The notes under the pieces are model-generated. The model searched no databases. It was not told where the DNA came from and worked only from the letters and a program-made list of their open reading frames with translations. From the NCBI GenBank assembly GCA_023512135.1, contig JAIMAG010000007.1:1-64000 (forward strand): a stretch of 64,000 bases of DNA, read 5' to 3'. Made by a program: the position numbers and the translations under genes. Below are positions 5,539-55,158 of this stretch, one piece after another (the stretch's first letter is position 1; every line of letters begins with the position of its first letter). This DNA comes from Terriglobia bacterium. GTDB taxonomy: Bacteria; Acidobacteriota; Terriglobia; Acidiferrales; UBA7541.

Positions 5539-6240
5539 ATGGGGGTCAGAACCTGGCTGGGCGGATTGTGGAAGCCGCAACGCACTGTGCAGCAGGATTG
5601 GGTGGCTGCGCTGCCCGAGGCAAAGCGACGGCTGTTCGAAAAAGCGGTCGCCGAGCTCGAAACGCACTATGTCATGCTCAGCGTAGCGCTGAACGAAGCG
5701 CTGGGGCTGCGTTCGCAGGGCGCACTGGCAGGAGCACGCGAGCAGGCCGCCATATCGGGTGCGCTGGCAGGAATGTTTGCTGAACGTCTGCTGGGGGCAT
5801 TGCGAGCGGTGGAAGACTGCAGCCGTCATTTTGCTGACCTGCCGCCGGTGACTCCGCTCAAACCAGCCCATTTCCGGGGCATGGGTGCGCAACTGACCGC
5901 CAGTTGGTCCCAGCTCTATTATCATGCCCTTTTCAGCGGAAGATTGCGATTCTTCCACAAGCTGGGAGCATTGATCCGGCTGGTGGAGGAGCTGGCGCGG
6001 CAGTACCGAACGACGGCAGAGGAAATCGCTTCGGGGGCTTCGACCGACCCCGCAAGCGATTGGACCCTGCTGGATCATTCGCACTATGATTTGAACACCT
6101 GCCTGCGGGAAACCATCGTGCTGCTGAAATCATTTTTGTGTGTGCTGCCGGTACAGGAAGTAGAGCAGTTCGAGGCCCGTTTAGGTGAACGGGTGGTGGG
6201 CCCTGTACCGGTCCACCAGTACCTGCGGGCTTCGACCTAG
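5539..6240 (+). CDS. Hypothetical mostly helical protein
   Basis: 233 residues starting MGVRTWLGGLWKPQ. The start is ATG 5539, preceded by GGGGGCGG; an upstream in-frame ATG at 5476 would lie ahead of the extended -10 promoter and is rejected. The composition is largely helical (ALPEAKRRLFEKAVAELETH and similar stretches), with no signal peptide, membrane segment or recognisable catalytic motif. It is transcribed divergently from lysS and precedes an ECF sigma gene after a 187-nt gap. I do not recognise the family. Confidence 0.75.
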   Translation: MGVRTWLGGLWKPQRTVQQDWVAALPEAKRRLFEKAVAELETHYVMLSVALNEALGLRSQGALAGAREQAAISGALAGMFAERLLGALRAVEDCSRHFADLPPVTPLKPAHFRGMGAQLTASWSQLYYHALFSGRLRFFHKLGALIRLVEELARQYRTTAEEIASGASTDPASDWTLLDHSHYDLNTCLRETIVLLKSFLCVLPVQEVEQFEARLGERVVGPVPVHQYLRAST

Positions 6241-46188: not shown

Positions 46189-48377
46189 TGGCGGAAACAC
46201 CGAAGCCCCCTGCACAGGCAACGATCGAGTGGCCGCCGGCCGGACGCCGTCGGTTGATCGGACAGCGGATTTCTCGACTGGACGGCCCGGCCAAGGCGTC
46301 CGGGCGCGCGAAATACAGCTACGACGTCAACCGGCCCGGGATGCTGCACGCCAAGCTGGTGTTTTCGACCCAAGCACGCGCCCGCATCACGGCGATCGAT
46401 ACCTCTGCCGCCGAAAAAATGCCGGGGGTCCGCGCCATTCACCTGATTCTGCAGCCCGGTGCGGAAGTGCGCTGGGTGGGTCAGGAGATTCTGGCACTGG
46501 CTGCCGACACCGAAGAACAAGCGCGTGACGCCGCCCGAGCCGTGAAGATCAGCTACGAACCGTTGCCACATCTGGTTGCTGATGTCCCGCCAGAACAGGC
46601 GGGAACGGAACGGGTGCAACAGCTCCGCGAGCAGACCGAAGGGGATCCGGATGCCGGCTTGCAGCAGGCCGACGTGATCTTCGAAGGGGAGTACGGCTGC
46701 GCCGTGATTACCCACTGCTGTTTGGAGGCTCACGGACAGGTGGCGGAATGGAACGAAGACAACCTGACCGTCTGGGCCTCTACGCAGAACGTCAGCGGAC
46801 TGGCTCCGCAATTCGCCCAGGGACTGCAGGCTGCGGGCATCCCGGTGCAGGCCTCGCAGGTGCGCGTGCTGACTCCGGTGATGGGCGGCGGATTCGGGAG
46901 CAAGTTTGCCGCAGATACCTGGGGAGTGGCCTGCGCCGCGCTGGCGCGCAAGGCCGGCCGGCCCGTTAAACTAATGCTCGAGCGCGACCACGAACTGCTG
47001 GCCGCCGGAAGCCGTCCTTCGATGTATGCCCGGGTGCGCGTGGGGGCGAAACGCGACGGCACCCTGACGGTGTGGCACTCTGAATCCTGGGGGACGGGTG
47101 GGCCCTCAGCGGCGGGCACGCCGAATCTCCCCTACGTGATCGGCGCCGGGAGAAATCCGGTGCTGCCGAAGCGCTCCCGGCACACTGCGGTGTTCACCGA
47201 CATCGGTCCGGCCCGGGCCTGGCGCGCGCCAAACCACCCGCAGATGTGCCTGATTACGATGTGCGCGCTGGATGACCTGGCCGCGAAACTCCAGATGGAT
47301 CCGCTCGATTTCTTCTTGAAGAATCTCCAGTACACCGAGCGGCCCGAAGTGTATCGCGAGGAACTGCTCAAAGCCGCGGACTTGATCGGCTGGCGGGAGA
47401 AATGGCGCCCGCGCGAAGAAGCACTGCGAGCAAAAGGACCCGTGAAGCGTGGCCTGGGGCTTTCGCTGCATACCTGGGGTGGACGCGGCCACAACAGCAC
47501 CTGCCAGGTGACCATCCATCCTGACGGGTCGGTGGAAGTCGCCATAGGCAGTCAGGACCTGGGCACCGGAACCCGAACCGTGATCGGCATCGTAGCCGCA
47601 GAAACGCTGGGGCTGCCGTTGGAAGCAGTTACGGTCAAAATCGGCAGCAACGAATACCCGCCTTCGGGCGCTTCGGGCGGTTCGACCACGGTCGGCGGGG
47701 TGAGCAGTTCGACGCGTGATGCGGCAACCAATGCGCTCAATCAACTGCTGGCGAAGGTCGCCCCGGCGCTGGGCGTGCCCGCCGAACAGCTGGAAGCGCG
47801 CGAAGGACGCATCCAGGTCAAAGACGATCCATCCCGGAACCTGTCGTGGAAACAAGCCTGTGCGCGTCTGGGTACGACACCCATCACAGCCAGCGGCCAG
47901 ACCCAGGCGAGCCTGATTTCCAGCGGGGTTGGTGGCGTACAGATGGCCGAGGTCGCCGTGGATGTGGAGACGGGGATTGTGCGTGTGGAGAAAATGGTTG
48001 CCGTGCAGGACTGCGGGTTGATCATCGATCTGAAGACCGCCGAAAGCCAGTGCTACGGGGCCATGATCATGGGCATCTGCTACGCGCTCTATGAAGAAAA
48101 AATCATGGATCAGCTCACCGGGCACTGTCTGAATCCGGACATGGAATTCTACAAGCTGGCCGGCATCGGCGATATCGGCGAGCTGGTCGTCCACATGATG
48201 ACCGGGCCCAGGTACGAGGAACGCGGGGTGATCGGGTTGGGTGAGCCACCGGTCATTTCGCCGGGTGCGGCCATCTCCAATGCGGTGGCCAACGCCATCG
48301 GCGTGCGCGTGCCCTACCTGCCGCTGACGCCAGATCGCGTGCTGGCCGCCCTGGAGGCGAAAGGAGGCGCCGTCTGA
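46188..48377 (+). CDS. Molybdenum hydroxylase large subunit (molybdopterin-binding, YagR/PaoC-like)
   Basis: 729 residues. Moco-binding features include VMGGGFGSKFAADTWGVACA and GGSTTVGGVSSSTRDA. The catalytic Glu lies in VIGLGEPPVISPG near the C-terminus. It begins with an IGQRISRLDGPAKASGRAKY segment typical of the family. The likely substrate is an aldehyde or purine; the sequence does not say which. It is exported by complex formation with the Tat-tagged small subunit. Confidence 0.92.
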   Translation: MAETPKPPAQATIEWPPAGRRRLIGQRISRLDGPAKASGRAKYSYDVNRPGMLHAKLVFSTQARARITAIDTSAAEKMPGVRAIHLILQPGAEVRWVGQEILALAADTEEQARDAARAVKISYEPLPHLVADVPPEQAGTERVQQLREQTEGDPDAGLQQADVIFEGEYGCAVITHCCLEAHGQVAEWNEDNLTVWASTQNVSGLAPQFAQGLQAAGIPVQASQVRVLTPVMGGGFGSKFAADTWGVACAALARKAGRPVKLMLERDHELLAAGSRPSMYARVRVGAKRDGTLTVWHSESWGTGGPSAAGTPNLPYVIGAGRNPVLPKRSRHTAVFTDIGPARAWRAPNHPQMCLITMCALDDLAAKLQMDPLDFFLKNLQYTERPEVYREELLKAADLIGWREKWRPREEALRAKGPVKRGLGLSLHTWGGRGHNSTCQVTIHPDGSVEVAIGSQDLGTGTRTVIGIVAAETLGLPLEAVTVKIGSNEYPPSGASGGSTTVGGVSSSTRDAATNALNQLLAKVAPALGVPAEQLEAREGRIQVKDDPSRNLSWKQACARLGTTPITASGQTQASLISSGVGGVQMAEVAVDVETGIVRVEKMVAVQDCGLIIDLKTAESQCYGAMIMGICYALYEEKIMDQLTGHCLNPDMEFYKLAGIGDIGELVVHMMTGPRYEERGVIGLGEPPVISPGAAISNAVANAIGVRVPYLPLTPDRVLAALEAKGGAV

Positions 48378-49363
48378 TGCAAGCCTTCGAATACGCCGAA
48401 CCGAAAACCTTGAAGGAAGCGCTGGGGCTGCTCAGTTCGCGCTGGGGGGAAACGGAAATCCTTGCCGGCGGCACCGACCTGCTGAGCCTGATGAAGAACT
48501 ACGTGGCCACGCCCAGGCGGGTGGTGAATCTGAAGAGCATCGCCGAGCTGCGGGGTGTGGCCGAAACTTCCGAGGGCCTGCGCATTGGCGCTCTGACCAC
48601 CGTGCAGGAGCTGCTGGAAGACCGTCGCCTGGCGCGTTTCCCGGCGCTGACCGCCGCCGCGCAGGGCATCACCAGTCCGCAGATTCGGAACATGGGCACC
48701 ATCGGCGGCGACCTGTGTCAGCGGCCGCGGTGCTGGTACTTCCGCAACGGCTTTGGCCTGCTGGCACGCGACGCGCAGGGGCGCGCCCTAGTGCCGGAAG
48801 GCGACAATCGTTACCACGCCATCCTGGGCAACGACGGGCCGGCCTATTTTGTGAGCGCTTCGAGCTTCGGCCCGCCGCTGATTGCGCTGGGCGCACGGGT
48901 GCGCATTGCCGGACCCAACGGAACCCGGGAGATGCCGCTGTCCGAATTTTTCGTGATACCCAAAAATGAAGGAGAGCGAGAAATCGCCCTGCACCCGAAC
49001 GAAATTCTGACGGATGTGTTTCTGCCGGCTGCCGCCAGCGAGCTGCGCAATGCTACCTACGAAGTACGCCAGCGCGAATTTCTCGACTGGCCCCTAGCCA
49101 CAGCATCGGTGGCGCTCGAGCTCCGCGAGGGAACAGTGCGGCGCGCCAGCATCGTGCTCGGGCACGTGGCACCGATCCCCTGGCAGGCCGGCGCTGCGGC
49201 TGCTCTGCTGGACGGAAAGGCCTTGACCGAAGACCTCGCTGACCAGGCCGGTGAACAGGCCGTGGCCGCCGCCAAACCGCTCAGCAAGAACCGATACAAG
49301 GTGCAACTGGCGCGCGTGGCCGTCAAACGCGCGTTGCTGGCCGCCGCACAGGGAGGTGCCTAG
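48377..49363 (+). CDS. Molybdenum hydroxylase FAD-binding subunit (YagS/PaoB-like)
   Basis: 328 residues. CO-dehydrogenase-medium-subunit-like FAD domain: EILAGGTDLLSLMKNYVATP and IRNMGTIGGDLCQRPRCWYFR. The Arg/Cys/Trp/Tyr/Phe segment after GGDL is typical of subunits with an extra [4Fe-4S] insertion. C114 and C119 are present, but the usual further cysteines in the insertion are absent (the stretch runs GFGLLARDAQGRALVPEGDN with none). The cluster is probably lost. Start overlaps the previous stop (TGATG). Confidence 0.88.
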   Translation: MQAFEYAEPKTLKEALGLLSSRWGETEILAGGTDLLSLMKNYVATPRRVVNLKSIAELRGVAETSEGLRIGALTTVQELLEDRRLARFPALTAAAQGITSPQIRNMGTIGGDLCQRPRCWYFRNGFGLLARDAQGRALVPEGDNRYHAILGNDGPAYFVSASSFGPPLIALGARVRIAGPNGTREMPLSEFFVIPKNEGEREIALHPNEILTDVFLPAAASELRNATYEVRQREFLDWPLATASVALELREGTVRRASIVLGHVAPIPWQAGAAAALLDGKALTEDLADQAGEQAVAAAKPLSKNRYKVQLARVAVKRALLAAAQGGA

Positions 49364-49365
49364 CC

Positions 49366-49575
49366 ATGCCGAATCTCCAGGTGCTGATCGAACGAGGCGA
49401 AGTCTGCTGCTGCCTGCGCGAAAAGGCCCTCTTTTACCAGACCGACGAAGAAACTCCGGGCGCTCCAGAAGGCCCTTTCTGGTGCGGACAGACACAATCG
49501 ATCGTTGGGCCAGACGGGGAGCTTGTCGCAGCGGAACGCTGCCGTCCGGGCCGGCCGTGCTGCGAAGTGATTTAG
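49366..49575 (+). CDS. Small cysteine-rich protein at the end of the hydroxylase operon
   Basis: 69 residues with seven cysteines: VCCCLREKA near residues 13-16, FWCGQTQ near 39-40 and RCRPGRPCCEVI at the C-terminus. It follows the FAD subunit by 2 nt and has the RBS AGGGAGGTGCC, so it is very likely translated with the operon. Family not recognised. The paired cysteines suggest metal binding or a metal/sulfur accessory role. Confidence 0.6.
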   Translation: MPNLQVLIERGEVCCCLREKALFYQTDEETPGAPEGPFWCGQTQSIVGPDGELVAAERCRPGRPCCEVI

Positions 49576-49606
49576 AATCAGATTGTTCGAAGGAACCCGC
49601 GTTTCC

Positions 49607-49636
49607 CTGACGAGTATCTAGCCGCTGTGTTATAAT
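49607..49636 (+). promoter_or_regulatory. Sigma-70 promoter with extended -10
   Basis: -35 CTGACG (49607-49612), 18-bp spacer, -10 TATAAT (49631-49636) preceded by TG at 49628-49629. The TATAAT is perfect. It drives the gene at 49846 through a leader of about 200 nt. Confidence 0.7.
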
Positions 49637-49641
49637 TAAAA

Positions 49642-49845
49642 AAGGCCACGAGCGAATTCCACGGGAAGGCCGAGTCTGCGCATCCTGGCCGGTAGGTGGG
49701 CCGCCCGCGTAGGAGCTGCCAGAAGCCCGACGGAACACCCCAGGCTAAATGGAACCCAGCCAACAAATTGTCTGAAGGGCATCTCGACGCAGACACGATC
49801 GGCGCACGGTCTGGCCGTTGTCAGAAGCAGCGGTAAGGAGGAACG
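49642..49845 (+). other. Long 5' leader of the 49846 gene, possibly structured
   Basis: About 200 nt from the predicted transcript start to the ATG. GTCTGCG near 49672 is complementary to CGCAGAC near 49790, which could close a long stem around a GC-rich core. An RBS (AAGGAGG, 49836-49842) ends it. I could not match it to a known riboswitch, 6S RNA, SRP RNA or RNase P signature, and I see no terminator or small ORF in it. Confidence 0.35.
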
Positions 49846-50103
49846 ATGCAGGTTTTGAGTGAAGGGCAGCGTTTACATCATCCCCAGTACGGGCTCGGCG
49901 TGGTCCGCGAATCCGACGCAGAACGCACAACGATCGATTTCGACGAGTACGGCGAGAAGAAATTCGTCACCAGCCTGATGACTGCGGAGTTGATCGGCGA
50001 GCCCCCGGCACCCGGAAGCCGCCATCGCGCACAGCGCCGTCGGACAGGCAAGGCCACGGCCCGGCGAAAAGCGCGCAGTCACACGACCCCGACCAACGAC
50101 TGA
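49846..50103 (+). CDS. Small Tudor-like (UvrD/PcrA C-terminal-like) protein with basic tail
   Basis: 85 residues. The N-terminal ~50 residues (EGQRLHHPQYGLGVVRESDA, then TIDFDEYGEKKFVTSL) match the small beta-barrel Tudor-like pattern G-x-x-V/L-H-P-x-Y-G-x-G-x-V found at the end of PcrA/UvrD and in CarD-type RNA-polymerase-binding proteins. The C-terminal ~25 residues are very basic (RRRTGKATARRKARS). It may be an RNA polymerase- or nucleic-acid-binding protein. The strong RBS AAGGAGG supports the start. Confidence 0.7.
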   Translation: MQVLSEGQRLHHPQYGLGVVRESDAERTTIDFDEYGEKKFVTSLMTAELIGEPPAPGSRHRAQRRRTGKATARRKARSHTTPTND

Positions 50104-50145
50104 AGCATGGGTCGCACCACCGAGACACGAAGACTGCAAGCACCA

Positions 50146-50174
50146 TTGAACTCGCCGTTCGGCAGTGCGATAAT
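50146..50174 (+). promoter_or_regulatory. Sigma-70 promoter of the DUF1326-like gene
   Basis: -35 TTGAAC (50146-50151), 17-bp spacer, -10 GATAAT (50169-50174) preceded by TG-n (50166-50168). About 27 nt upstream of the ATG. Confidence 0.65.
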
Positions 50175-50200
50175 CAGGCTCACGTCAGGAGGGAACCGCC

Positions 50201-50881
50201 ATGAAGCTGCGTGGGGTTTTGTTTTTACTGTGCCTCGGAGTGTGCATGCCAGCCCTGGCGCAGGAGCACAGTGCGGGCACACTGACTGGTTTTTACGCAG
50301 AGTTCCGGACCGCGGACGTTTTCACCGGGCCGTGCTTCGCCAACAGCGAAGTGCGCCTGACCGGACATGAGGCCGCGCTGGCCTGGCACATCGAGCGGGG
50401 CGCATGGAAAGGTGTTGCGCTCGGCGGACTGAGTGTGGTTGCGGTCGTGCGCGCCAATGCCACGCTGGGCGATCCCTTCTCGAATCCGCTGCCGGCCAAG
50501 ACGGTATTCCTGGTGGACTCGCGCGCCAGCCAGGCCCAGCAGCAGGCCCTGGTAGAGTTTGCACAAGCCCAGACTGGCGCGCTGCTGAAAGACGTCGTGG
50601 CGGTGGAGGCGGTGCCGATTCGCTTCACAATGGATGTCGGCGGACAACATGGCGCCATCGCACTGGACGCGGGAGAAACGGTCCGCTTGCGGACACGAGC
50701 GCTGAACAGCAACGACCATCTGTGCACCAACGAAGAAGTCTACTACCCGCCGCTGGCAGCGAACCTGCACCACGCTATGCCGGTCGTGGTGCTGCAGGGA
50801 GCCTACCGGGGCAATCACTTGGGCACGAATTGGGAAGAAGCGGGCCGCCGCGGCGCATTTGTGGGCACGTTCGCGTTCTAG
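50201..50881 (+). CDS. Secreted DUF1326-like protein
   Basis: 226 residues. Signal peptide GVLFLLCLGVCMPALAQ, then GFYAEFRTADVFTGPCFANS, TGHEAALAWHIERGAWKGV and LSVVAVVRANATL, the pattern of DUF1326 (unknown function). One Cys pair is possible: FTGPCF and DHLCTNEE. The start ATG 50201 follows the RBS AGGAGGG. A terminator follows at 50928-50955. Confidence 0.78.
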   Translation: MKLRGVLFLLCLGVCMPALAQEHSAGTLTGFYAEFRTADVFTGPCFANSEVRLTGHEAALAWHIERGAWKGVALGGLSVVAVVRANATLGDPFSNPLPAKTVFLVDSRASQAQQQALVEFAQAQTGALLKDVVAVEAVPIRFTMDVGGQHGAIALDAGETVRLRTRALNSNDHLCTNEEVYYPPLAANLHHAMPVVVLQGAYRGNHLGTNWEEAGRRGAFVGTFAF

Positions 50882-50927
50882 TATCTTCGGGCCTTATCCA
50901 CCATAAAGCCTGCTCTGGCTCTGTCCA

Positions 50928-50955
50928 AAAAGCCCGCCCGACGGTGGGCTTTTCT
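50928..50955. terminator. Rho-independent terminator (hairpin + T-run)
   Basis: AAAAGCCCGCC pairs with GGTGGGCTTTT around a CGAC loop (one G-U pair). The A/T arms flank both sides, so it can act on both strands. It ends the DUF1326-like transcript. Confidence 0.85.
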
Positions 50956-51133
50956 ATAACGAAACGGCTCGCGGCAATGGCCCACAATGGTGTCTGAGCA
51001 TCGCTGCGCCAGCACGGGTGAATATGTGTCCGGGAACCGGACACCCTCGGAAACAGACTCGCAGGCGTTTTTGCTTGTCAGTGCTTCGCTGAGTCGGCTA
51101 GCTTTTCCCTGAACGCCGAGGAGGAGTAAGGGA

Positions 51134-51823
51134 ATGAAACGGGCAAGGAGTATTGCGGCACTGATTGCAGGAGTTTTTCTCATATTGACGGCAACAGCAG
51201 CACAGTCCTACCGGGCTGAAACGTTTGCTGCGCCACCCCCAGCCGAGGTGAGCGCAGCGATGCGAGGGATGCTTTCCGAGAACGCGATCCGCATTGTCTC
51301 CGAGAAAGGGACTTTGTGCGAGGTTTGGGTGGTGCGGGCCGTTCCGGTGCAGGCCAATCCGAGCCCCCAGCTCGGGGTCATTCTGCCTGAGCTCGCTGAG
51401 GGCACCCTGATTGGGGTGGTCCGGTTTCGGACAGAAGGAGAAGACTATCGCCGGCAATCCGTCCCGCCCGGGGTGTACACGATGCGCTATGCGCTCCATC
51501 CTGTGGACGGAAATCACCAGGGAGTGGCCCCGCAGCGGGATTTTCTGCTGCTGGTGCCGGCGGCGGCCGATGGAGACCCGGGACGGATGCCGCTGGCGGA
51601 ACTGTACGCCCAAAGCCAGAAAGCCTCCGGCACCACACACCCTTCGGTCTGGAGCCTGGTGCCAGCGGAAACTGCCGGCGCCGGGGCGCTTCCGGCAGTG
51701 ACGCATCACGCCGAGGAGGACCTCTGGATTGTAACGTTCGCTGTCTCTGGCCAGGCCGAGAGTGGCGCTCCCCGACAGCTCCGGATTTCGCTCGTGTTTG
51801 CAGGGCACGCTCCGGAAGCGTAG
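51134..51823 (+). CDS. Hypothetical secreted protein
   Basis: 229 residues. Signal peptide SIAALIAGVFLILTATAAQS, then a region with a single Cys (EKGTLCEVWVVRAV) and a C-terminal beta-rich part (DLWIVTFAVSG, LRISLVFAG). RBS GAGGAG 8 nt upstream of ATG. No family recognised; probably a periplasmic protein of unknown role. Confidence 0.72.
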   Translation: MKRARSIAALIAGVFLILTATAAQSYRAETFAAPPPAEVSAAMRGMLSENAIRIVSEKGTLCEVWVVRAVPVQANPSPQLGVILPELAEGTLIGVVRFRTEGEDYRRQSVPPGVYTMRYALHPVDGNHQGVAPQRDFLLLVPAAADGDPGRMPLAELYAQSQKASGTTHPSVWSLVPAETAGAGALPAVTHHAEEDLWIVTFAVSGQAESGAPRQLRISLVFAGHAPEA

Positions 51824-51934
51824 CCAGCGAGGCGCCGCCGTGCCGGCTCACATCGGCGGCCCTGGAGCAAGGCACCAGGGAAAGCCCGCAGTCGAGCTTG
51901 TGCTGCGCAGGAATCATATTTAGGATGGCGTGGC

Positions 51935-52474
51935 ATGTATGTCTGTCCTTCCTGTGAACGGCCCATCAATCAGGCGACAGAAATCTGTCCGTACTGCGAG
52001 ACGGACCTGATCAGCCTGCGCGAATCTTTGGAAGCCGAACCTCCCAAGAAAGCGAACCCGATCGCGATGCTGGCGCGCTGGGGCGTGCTGCTGATCGCTG
52101 TGTGGGCGTTTCTGTGGTTGATCATGCCGGAACGAGCGGTCGACCAACGGCTGCAGGCCGAACAGGTCGCGGTGGAGGCACTCCGGCAGGTACAATCCGC
52201 ACTGTCCGGCTATCTGGCAGCGCAGGGATCGTTTCCCGATTCGCTGGAGGCGCTGGGGGACCGGGTCCGGAGTGCTGCACAGCAGGCGCAGGGACAAGGC
52301 TACCGGCTGGTGTACGCGCCAGGCCATGCGGCACCCGACGGGCGGACGCGCAGCTACACCCTGGAAGCGCGCGCCGGCAACTACGGATACCGGAGCTTCT
52401 ACACCGATGAATCTGGAGTGTTGCGTGCCACACGAGAACAACGACCTGCCAATGCACTCGACCCGCCGCTGTAA
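51935..52474 (+). CDS. Zinc-ribbon/membrane protein with a pilin-like C-terminal domain
   Basis: 179 residues. An N-terminal double C-x2-C zinc ribbon (YVCPSCERPINQATEICPYC) is followed by a membrane segment (WGVLLIAVWAFLWLIM, ~50-66) and a C-terminal domain with the type IV pilin-like layout (SALSGYLAAQGSFPDSLEAL, RSYTLEARAGNYGYRSFYTD, ending NALDPPL). No prepilin peptidase site is visible; the helix is replaced by the zinc-ribbon and membrane anchor. Function unknown. Confidence 0.7.
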   Translation: MYVCPSCERPINQATEICPYCETDLISLRESLEAEPPKKANPIAMLARWGVLLIAVWAFLWLIMPERAVDQRLQAEQVAVEALRQVQSALSGYLAAQGSFPDSLEALGDRVRSAAQQAQGQGYRLVYAPGHAAPDGRTRSYTLEARAGNYGYRSFYTDESGVLRATREQRPANALDPPL

Positions 52475-52544
52475 GAGCGCGGCACACGCCTGCGCCGGTG
52501 CCGGAAGCACAGTTCGGGCAGGCCGAGGGGAGGAGGTGGGGACC

Positions 52545-53702
52545 ATGCCGTGGCGAACCGGAGCGCGTCTGTGGAAGAGTTTCGCCTGTGTGCTGCTGGG
52601 CGGAATGACATGGGCCGGAGCAGTCGGTGCCCAGCAGGCCGGGAGCAGACCCAGCTTTGCCGTGGGGCCGGTGCGCGCGGAAGCCGGCACGCGCGCCAGC
52701 GGATTTCTCGAGATCCCGCCGCGGGAAGGCGTGGATCACGGAACCCAGATTCCGATCACGGTGATCCACGGAGCGCGGCCCGGGCCGGTGCTCGGGCTCA
52801 TCGCGGGAACGCACGGATACGAGTATGCGCCGATCGTAGCCCTGCAACGGCTCCCCGCGAAAATCGATCCCCGAACGCTCGCAGGCACGGTGATCGTTGT
52901 GCACATCGCCAATCTGCCTTCGTTTCTCGGGCGGACGATCTACTACAGTCCGGTCGACGGCAAGAATTTGAATCGCGTCTATCCCGGTCGGGCCGACGGG
53001 ACGATTTCCGAGCGCATCGCCCACGCCATCACCCAGGAAGTGATCGCCAGATCGGATTTTGTTGTGGATCTGCACTGCGGCGACGGCAACGAGGCGCTCC
53101 GCCCGTATACCTACTGGATGACCAGCGGGACTCCCGAGGTGAACGAGCAGTCGAAGCAGATGGCCCTGGCCTTCGGACTCGATCACATTGTGATCGACCG
53201 GGAGCGGACCACCGATCCGGAAAACTCGGTCTATACCTCGAACACCGCGATTCTGCGCGGCAAGCCTTCGATCACCACCGAAACCGGCCGACTCGGGAGC
53301 GTCGATGAAGCGAGCATCGGGCTGGCCGAGGCGGGCGTGTTCAATCTGCTGCGCCATTTCCGCATGGTCCCGGGCACACCGAACCGGGTGGAGCACCCCA
53401 TCTGGATCGACCGCAATGTGGTGCTGCGCAGCGGGCACACGGGGTTGTTCTACGCGCAGGTGGAGCCGGGACAGACCGTCGCCGAAGGGACCGTCATCGG
53501 AACGCTCACCGATTTTCACGGGAACGTGCTGGAGCAGGTGCGCGCGCCCTTTGCCGGCGTCGTTCTCTATGTCGTGGCCACACCACCGGTACGCGTGGGT
53601 GAACCGCTGGGGATGATCGGCCACGTCCTGCACGACGAACCACACAGCCCACGCGGCGACGCGGAAAAAGGTCCGGGTGCCGAATCGGGTGTCAGAAAGT
53701 GA
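52545..53702 (+). CDS. Secreted succinylglutamate desuccinylase/aspartoacylase family zinc carboxypeptidase
   Basis: 385 residues. Signal peptide SFACVLLGGMTWAGAVGAQ, then the M14-like zinc fold: GTHGYEYAPIVAL (His and Glu zinc ligands) and FVVDLHCGDGNEALRP (His ligand), with NLNRVYPGRADG and GKPSITTETGRLG. The C-terminal barrel ends the protein. RBS GGGGAGGAGG upstream of ATG 52545. Substrate is not deducible; the signal peptide implies extracytoplasmic hydrolysis of an acyl-amino acid. Confidence 0.87.
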   Translation: MPWRTGARLWKSFACVLLGGMTWAGAVGAQQAGSRPSFAVGPVRAEAGTRASGFLEIPPREGVDHGTQIPITVIHGARPGPVLGLIAGTHGYEYAPIVALQRLPAKIDPRTLAGTVIVVHIANLPSFLGRTIYYSPVDGKNLNRVYPGRADGTISERIAHAITQEVIARSDFVVDLHCGDGNEALRPYTYWMTSGTPEVNEQSKQMALAFGLDHIVIDRERTTDPENSVYTSNTAILRGKPSITTETGRLGSVDEASIGLAEAGVFNLLRHFRMVPGTPNRVEHPIWIDRNVVLRSGHTGLFYAQVEPGQTVAEGTVIGTLTDFHGNVLEQVRAPFAGVVLYVVATPPVRVGEPLGMIGHVLHDEPHSPRGDAEKGPGAESGVRK

Positions 53703-53796
53703 GCGTCGGGCGTTGATGATCCCGGCGAAGCTGTGGGAAGCTTGAAACCGTTCACGCGTCCGAGGAACCTTTCCGTTCCCGTCGAGGAGAGCACTG

Positions 53797-54312
53797 ATGC
53801 GAACCCGAACGATCCTGTTGCTGAGCGTTGCGATCCTGATTCTGCTGGCTGCCTACCTCAGTCTGGACCGCAACGGGACGACACCTACATCCCCGCCGGC
53901 GGCCGCCGTGCCTGCGCCGGAAACCATCCCCGCCGCGCCAGCCCACCCGTCGCCCATGCGCGAGCGCGTGCCGCCTTTTTATGCCGATGCCGAATCGGCC
54001 AAGCCGTATCCGCGAATCCTGCCGGCCGAGCAGTTTCGCAACTATCCCGCGGCGGCTCGTGCGTACCGCGTGGCTGCTGCGATGCCGGAGGTTCTGGTGC
54101 AGTTGCCGTGCTACTGCTGGTGCGACAAATTCGGGCACGGGAGCCTGCTGGATTGTTTTGCCAGCTCGCACGGAGCGGGTTGAGCGATCTGCCTCAAGGA
54201 GGTTCTCCTTGCGGAAAAGCTGGTACGCCAGGGCCTGAAGCCGGAGCAGATTCGCGCAGCCATAATCCGCGGAGAGTGGCAGGCCATTCCGCTGCAGGGC
54301 CCCTTCGAGTGA
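53797..54312 (+). CDS. Anchored CYC-x-C family protein, probable selenoprotein (UGA = Sec129)
   Basis: Read through the in-frame TGA at 54181-54183, this gene encodes 171 residues. It has an N-terminal membrane segment (TILLLSVAILILLAAYL), a Pro/Ala linker and a CYCWC motif (C105, C107, C109), with D-K-F-G-H-G-S-L-L-D-C (C120) and H-G-A-G. The UGA then falls at residue 129 in U-A-I-C (C132). The frame continues LKEVLLAEKLVRQGLKPEQI to a real stop at 54310-54312. The gene matches PCYCGC/CYC-x-C family proteins, in which the last motif is C/U-x-x-C. A 7-bp hairpin (54195-54211) sits where a bacterial SECIS should be. If UGA is a stop, a 128-residue product ends at SSHGAG. Confidence 0.78.
54192..54214 (+). 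promoter_or_regulatory. Candidate bacterial SECIS hairpin
   Basis: CAAGGAG (54195-54201) pairs perfectly with CTCCTTG (54205-54211) around a GTT loop. Beyond a 1x1 mismatch, CC (54192-54193) pairs with GG (54213-54214). The loop starts with G and lies 18 nt after the UGA, inside the 16-37 nt window used in published bacterial SECIS models. The hairpin lies inside the coding frame. Confidence 0.7.
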
Positions 54313-54367
54313 ATGCGGCCGCCGGGCCATGGAGCAGGGCTCTACGTTCCGGGAATCTGCGGGATGG

Positions 54368-54376
54368 TGCTATACT
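54368..54376 (+). promoter_or_regulatory. Extended -10 promoter of the tRNA-Ser/greA region
   Basis: TG (54368-54369), one nucleotide, then TATACT (54371-54376); no clear -35. It lies about 90 nt before the tRNA. Confidence 0.5.
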
Positions 54377-54473
54377 GGAGAAGAAAAACAGGCAGCTTGC
54401 GGCGCAGCGTTCCCAGAAGGGTTCGGTGCTCGAAGTGCAGCCGTGCTGTTTGCGGCGTGGCCACACATTCCCC

Positions 54474-54567
54474 GGAGAGGTGCTGGAGTGGCTGAACAGG
54501 GCTGCCTGCTAAGCAGTTGCACCGGCTAAAACCGGTGTCGGGGGTTCGAATCCCCCCCTCTCCGCCA
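54474..54567 (+). tRNA. tRNA-Ser (anticodon GCU)
   Basis: Class II tRNA of 94 nt including encoded CCA. Acceptor arm GGAGAGG/CCTCTCC, anticodon loop CTGCTAA with GCT at the centre, anticodon stem GCTGC/GCAGT (one G-U), long variable arm CACCGG/CCGGTG, T-arm GGGGG TTCGAAT CCCCC. The GCU anticodon reads AGC/AGU serine codons. It is not tRNA-Sec (which would have UCA). Confidence 0.93.
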
Positions 54568-54663
54568 GATTTCGTCCCGCGTGCTTCTGAACAGACAGCG
54601 GGTGGGCCGTTGAGGGAAGCAGAGCGCGCCGGAAATTTCTGCGGTTTTCGTCGGGATGCAACC

Positions 54664-55158
54664 ATGAACAATGCCGAAGCTCGCATTCGCCGGAAACTGG
54701 AAGAAGAAATCCGGCTGATCGAACACGAGCTGAAAAACGAGCTGCCCAAAGAGCTGATGAAGGCCCGGGCGCACGGCGACCTTTCCGAAAATTCCGAATA
54801 CAAGTACGCCAAAGAACGGCAGAGCTATCTTTCCGCGCGTCTGAGCCAGTTGCAGAAGCGACTCGCCAATGTGTCGCTGTTGAATCTGAACAACCTGCCG
54901 CGCGACCGCGTCGGCTACGGCTCGCAGGTGCGGCTGCTGGACATCGAGAAGGGAACGGAAGTCGCCTACAAGCTGGTCACCAGCGAGGAAGCCGATGCCG
55001 CACAGGGGCTGATTTCGACGACCTCACCGATCGGACGTGCGCTGCTCGGCCGTGCAGTGGGCGACGAGGTGCGCGTGCAAACACCCGGCGGGCTGAAGCG
55101 GTTCGAGATCGTTTCCCTGCGCACCATTTACGACGACCCGGAACTGCAGGGGCCCTAG
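54664..55158 (+). CDS. greA: Transcription elongation factor GreA
   Basis: Stimulates cleavage of backtracked RNA by RNA polymerase. 164 residues. N-terminal coiled coil (ARIRRKLEEEIRLIEHELK) with the signature GDLSENSEYKYAKERQSYLS; the C-terminal FKBP-like domain ends IVSLRTIYDDPELQGP. The start is ATG 54664. It follows the tRNA-Ser by about 100 nt. Confidence 0.9.
   Translation: MNNAEARIRRKLEEEIRLIEHELKNELPKELMKARAHGDLSENSEYKYAKERQSYLSARLSQLQKRLANVSLLNLNNLPRDRVGYGSQVRLLDIEKGTEVAYKLVTSEEADAAQGLISTTSPIGRALLGRAVGDEVRVQTPGGLKRFEIVSLRTIYDDPELQGP

Follow-up and report, generated by a model that had tools for sequence, protein, structure and literature searches.

A CYCXC-family gene in an acidobacterial genome with an internal UGA that is almost certainly read as selenocysteine

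The in-frame UGA at position 54181 of the window (the 64,000 nt stretch of contig JAIMAG010000007.1, from a Terriglobia bacterium, that was analysed here) is almost certainly decoded as selenocysteine (Sec) within a gene of the CYCXC family; we infer Sec insertion itself from the comparison of sequences. The initial annotation had proposed Sec at residue 129, and the family score, the Sec genes of the genome, the Sec/Cys column of the relatives and a conserved hairpin all agree with it. Its coordinates for 53797–54312 were correct throughout, namely the CYCWC motif at residues 105–109, U129 in U-A-I-C, the 42 sense codons that lie between U129 and the second UGA at 54310–54312 when TGA is translated as U, and that UGA as the end. 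The plain ORF is 128 aa long and ends at UGA 54181–54183. Thus, as had been anticipated, a standard caller truncates the gene at 128 residues. The features are collected in Table 1. A tRNA-Ser (GCU) gene is found shortly downstream of the selenoprotein gene, at window 54474–54563.

Table 1. Features of the CYCXC-family gene in the window and the evidence for each
Feature	Position	Strand	Evidence
CYCXC-family selenoprotein gene, 171 residues, U129, second UGA as end	53797..54312	+	Translation with TGA=U; NF041379 and PF13798 scores
N-terminal hydrophobic helix, residues about 2-23, signal anchor or uncleaved signal	53797..53865	+	Kyte-Doolittle 2.63 (residues 5-23); model helix 2-23
C-Y-C-W-C motif, residues 105-109	54109..54123	+	Translation; three Cys invariant in 54 aligned relatives
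UGA, almost certainly selenocysteine, residue 129, in U-A-I-C	54181..54183	+	UGA or Cys here in 101/101 distinct rows
Predicted SECIS hairpin CAAGGAG-GUU-CUCCUUG, 7 bp, loop 18 nt past UGA	54195..54211	+	Relatives; bacterial SECIS model (PMC13188914)
UGA used as real stop	54310..54312	+	Different stop codon at this place in sister genome

Against NCBIfam NF041379, ‘CYCXC family (seleno)protein’, the read-through product reaches 98.6 bits (curated cut-off 90; E 1.6e-28; profile positions 2–88 of 90), and against Pfam PF13798, PCYCGC, it reaches 35.9 bits (cut-off 25). NF041379 asks for Sec in UxxC aligned with the Cys of homologues, and this is the arrangement found in the window protein. A 2026 review tabulates a ‘CYCXC family protein (hypothetical protein OS_HP4)’ with PF13798 and the motif UxxC (PMC13188914); that source credits the first description of OS_HP4, from an Olavius algarvensis symbiont, to Zhang and Gladyshev 2007. 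The belief expressed in the initial annotation that members with Sec had earlier been named was therefore right, and since the OS_HP4/CYCXC family with UxxC is already published, the window gene extends a selenoprotein family that was known before. Compared with the NF041379 profile and the tabulated motif, the window protein has the same order of CYCxC, GH, C-F, HG and U/C-x-x-C. It differs from the family as tabulated in being part of an acidobacterial clade in which a single SECIS hairpin is near-invariant and close relatives lie in efflux operons. All 54 of the 54 aligned CYCXC members match PF13798, which also includes Bacillales lipoproteins, the described member being a lipoprotein of unknown function (PMC13068155). 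The window protein differs from the Bacillales PCYCGC lipoprotein in having an N-terminal hydrophobic helix and Sec.

The genome carries the means to insert Sec. The search for selA, selB, selC and selD suggested at the outset recovered all four, with tRNA-Sec (anticodon UCA) in the same assembly as selA (572 bits), selB (395 bits) and selD (371 bits). In selD (L048:1531) an in-frame UGA lies close to the start of the matched stretch, in AAGUAAK, the region in which SelD-family enzymes have their catalytic Cys or Sec; given this UGA near the N-terminus, selD is probably itself a selenoprotein gene. Within the window, TGAs with open flanks and nearby Cys were inspected by eye for further Sec codons, and none but 54181 looked protein-like. 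TGA 35604, which is followed by a good-looking hairpin, was dropped as it lies antisense inside a dnaK-like gene.

Comparison with a sister genome (L052) indicates that protein-coding constraint goes on beyond UGA 54181. The two are collinear over window positions 47823–54548, with 81.6 % identity. Across the 43 codons from the UGA, differences at codon positions 1, 2 and 3 number 3, 2 and 11, respectively, with 10 synonymous vs 4 nonsynonymous codons. Identity is 114/132 aligned columns past the UGA vs 114/174 after the final stop. The internal UGA is the same in the two genomes, whereas the final stop codon is different. The L052 sequence (JAIMBE010000027.1) is a MAG titled ‘Bacillota’, a label that looks wrong, the other relatives being Acidobacteriota.

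Homologues were taken from 61 related genomes and from 80 named genome contigs, almost exclusively of Acidobacteriota; Cys-form homologues include those of Silvibacterium bohemicum (L090) and of Edaphobacter (L115/L120). In the alignment that the initial annotation had called for, the homologues have a C-x-x-C or U-x-x-C at the matching place beyond the UGA, and downstream similarity is strong. Neither of the two outcomes that the initial annotation had named as refuting it was obtained. Among 101 distinct rows, the residue-129 column holds 28 UGA and 73 Cys. Residues Y90, A93, C105, C107, C109, H114, C120, H125, C/U129, C132 and I152 are invariant in the 54 aligned relatives. When the Sec/Cys state is placed on a tree of 100 rows, at least 8 changes are needed and 5 are forced by well-supported branches, although the branch order is only partly reliable because few columns are available. 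On this tree, Sec and Cys have been exchanged repeatedly among the CYCXC relatives. A second CYCXC gene, divergent and with Cys for Sec, is found in the window's genome at G000:C44:339966-340229 (L037). At another locus (L058:5971-7102) a Sec copy and a Cys copy of the gene stand in tandem, directly downstream of a CusA/CzcA gene.

The hairpin past the UGA has stem arms at 54195–54201 and 54205–54211 and a GUU loop at 54202–54204; its 7 bp and its spacing of 18 nt from UGA 54181–54183 to the loop were the same when the positions given in the initial annotation were re-derived. The bacterial SECIS model allows an apical loop of 3–9 nt, an upper stem of 4–16 bp and a UGA-to-loop distance of 16–37 nt, and it calls for a G within the first two loop positions and an MFE of at most −7.5 kcal/mol (PMC13188914). 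Scored against this model, as had been suggested, the window hairpin lies within every published constraint: loop (3 nt), stem (7 bp) and spacing are inside the limits, the GUU loop obeys the G rule, as do all aligned main-clade Sec forms with G first in the loop, and the MFE is −7.5 for the 17 nt hairpin, which taken alone only just reaches the energy limit, and −14.1 for 45 nt. The 8 nt string AAGGAGGU (window 54196–54203) spans the SECIS 5′ arm and the loop start and is a perfect Shine–Dalgarno-like string; it is retained in most Sec relatives.

By itself, the window hairpin is weak evidence. Counting TGAs on both window strands whose permitted downstream range holds a stem of 7 or more Watson–Crick pairs with G at the loop start, a hairpin at least as good occurs after 20 of the 1,420 window TGAs (1.4 %). 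Folding z-scores are −1.08 for the 45 nt downstream stretch, which is not exceptional, and −2.48 for the 17 nt hairpin alone. An Rfam scan of 53700–54700 returned tRNA-Ser plus chance-level matches near the hairpin, and no Rfam family recognized the hairpin. Rfam RF00031 gave zero matches across the genome; the controls were equally silent, and this result is therefore uninformative on bacterial SECIS elements. The use of the hairpin as evidence for Sec thus holds only in part: standing alone it is matched after other window TGAs, and it is its conservation with Sec across the relatives that settles the question.

That conservation is pronounced. The hairpin CAAGGAG-GNN-CTCCTTG, at the same offset and with at least 6 of 7 pairs, occurs in 25/26 main-clade Sec rows vs 3/69 Cys rows (Fisher p = 1.5e-18, a value that ignores shared ancestry), and all 7 pairs are intact in 23 of the 26 Sec rows. 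Codons at the hairpin are near-fixed in Sec rows at synonymous sites (AAG 25/26, GAG 25/26, CTC 23/26 and CTT 25/26), whereas Cys rows have a mixture of AAG/AAA and of GAA/GAG, and their last two codons often encode different residues. In an alignment of 24 Sec rows, from which the weaker-stemmed L075, L081 and L083 are excluded, 168/168 pair cells are paired. Relative L074 has a compensatory double change in which two outer-stem pairs are altered on both sides. In L075, L081 and L083 the closing pair has been lost, together with one further pair in L083, and a shorter stem remains. The distant Sec forms L010 and L014 are without the main hairpin and have their own, with a 6 bp stem and a 5 nt loop 22 nt past the UGA, which still fits the SECIS model in spite of its other sequence and position; a C-G to U-A exchange separates the two, and the Cys relatives of both are without that hairpin. 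L108 is a Cys form (codon at 6166) in which a perfect SECIS hairpin is still present, which is what a recent change from Sec to Cys would leave behind. The exact pattern UGA-N11-CAAGGAGGNNCTCCTTG was found once each in 5 of 396 phylum-sample genomes, with 0 matches for the reversed control, and all 5 matches fall inside CYCXC genes. In the window's own genome the hairpin string has a single occurrence.

Were UGA 54181 an ordinary stop, the 128-residue product would be functional and the 42 downstream codons a decaying remnant. In favour of this, UGA normally terminates translation and the hairpin alone is within chance; however, 28 distinct relatives retain UGA in the column, the equivalent Cys is otherwise invariant, the downstream codons are under protein-level constraint and the Sec machinery of the genome is complete, so that termination here is very improbable. 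Still less credit can be given to the idea that the hairpin serves some other end, either as an internal ribosome-binding site or in mRNA stability. Retention of the Shine–Dalgarno-like string in most Sec forms would suit such a role, but the hairpin tracks Sec status and not the family generally, the L074 double change preserves outer-stem pairing, and the L010 and L014 hairpin fits the SECIS model while differing in sequence and position. If UGA 54181 is decoded as Sec, SelB carrying Sec-tRNA(UCA) and GTP would bind the hairpin just past codon 129, this complex would decode the UGA, and translation would continue to residue 171. The product would be an inner-membrane-anchored periplasmic CYCXC (OS_HP4) selenoprotein.

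The protein has a single N-terminal hydrophobic helix, from which the CYCXC domain is predicted to lie in the periplasm. The predicted structure is an all-helical domain (mean pLDDT 89.8, pTM 0.69). A PDB sequence search with the window protein found no relative, and Foldseek of the predicted fold against PDB gave no match below E = 5 (best E = 5.1). In the close relatives L053–L059 a CusA/CzcA-type pump gene lies directly upstream on the same strand; TIGR00914 (CusA/CzcA) was confirmed in L053, L054 and L058. L055 and L056 have a CusB-like adaptor, with TIGR01730 over its cut-off and the CusB model itself below cut-off. Additionally, L053 and L054 have a cytochrome c-like gene, its CxxCH visible in the sequence, that separates cusA from the CYCXC gene, and the Cys loci L089, L107 and L112 also have a CusA/CzcA gene just upstream. 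For the majority of the Cys relatives, and likewise of the wider Sec set, no pump is adjacent. No RND pump adjoins the window CYCXC gene; the gene upstream of it is deacetylase-like (a weak DoeB match, below cut-off), a gene order common to the window and the sister genome, and the CusA/CzcA gene of the window's genome is on a different contig. Neighbour clustering placed the context of the window copy in common with the sister genome only. A literature search for a link between selenoproteins and copper efflux returned nothing relevant.

As close relatives are linked to CusA/CzcA-type efflux operons, the protein may bind soft metals or act in redox chemistry in the periplasm. The invariant Cys, His and Sec residues (C-x-C-x-C, His114, Cys120, His125 and U/C129-x-x-C132) probably form one site, which would bind soft metals or act in thiol/selenol redox chemistry, and this site may cooperate with envelope metal homeostasis, e.g. 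CusA/CzcA-type efflux. A role in metal handling is put forward tentatively. With residue 129 still Sec, the protein could instead be an envelope thiol/selenol oxidoreductase, a possibility that we take seriously without favouring it. U-x-x-C resembles redox motifs, Sec-for-Cys exchanges occur mostly at redox-active residues, and the cytochrome c-like CxxCH gene of L053 and L054 is in keeping with redox chemistry. However, the PDB searches found no thioredoxin or other known redox fold, and the many invariant Cys and His residues and the metal-efflux linkage fit metal binding at least as well. The setting of the close relatives, small Cys/His-rich envelope proteins in a CusCBA-like cluster, is analogous to that of CusF, the periplasmic Cu/Ag chaperone of CusCFBA. 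The analogy extends to setting alone: CusF is a small beta-barrel, whereas the window protein is predicted to be all-helical and is not a CusF member. In a bolder and rather doubtful extension of the metal-handling role, acidobacterial CYCXC proteins would be selenium-based periplasmic factors feeding or protecting CusCBA-type pumps, with Sec, in a helical fold unmatched in PDB, used for soft-metal capture and not for classical redox catalysis.

A well-supported selenoprotein gene is gained that standard annotation would otherwise truncate. What the analysis adds to the published family is a SECIS of unusual rigidity, the repeated exchange of Sec and Cys, a set of invariant Cys, His and Sec residues within a helical fold unmatched in PDB and the efflux-operon linkage of close relatives. 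The relatives constitute a natural data set in which one hairpin comes and goes with Sec, including the L108 relic and the L058 Sec/Cys pair; these two cases, the rigid hairpin and the efflux link are worth following up. The efflux-operon link offers a testable function for a published, functionally uncharacterized family known only by motif.
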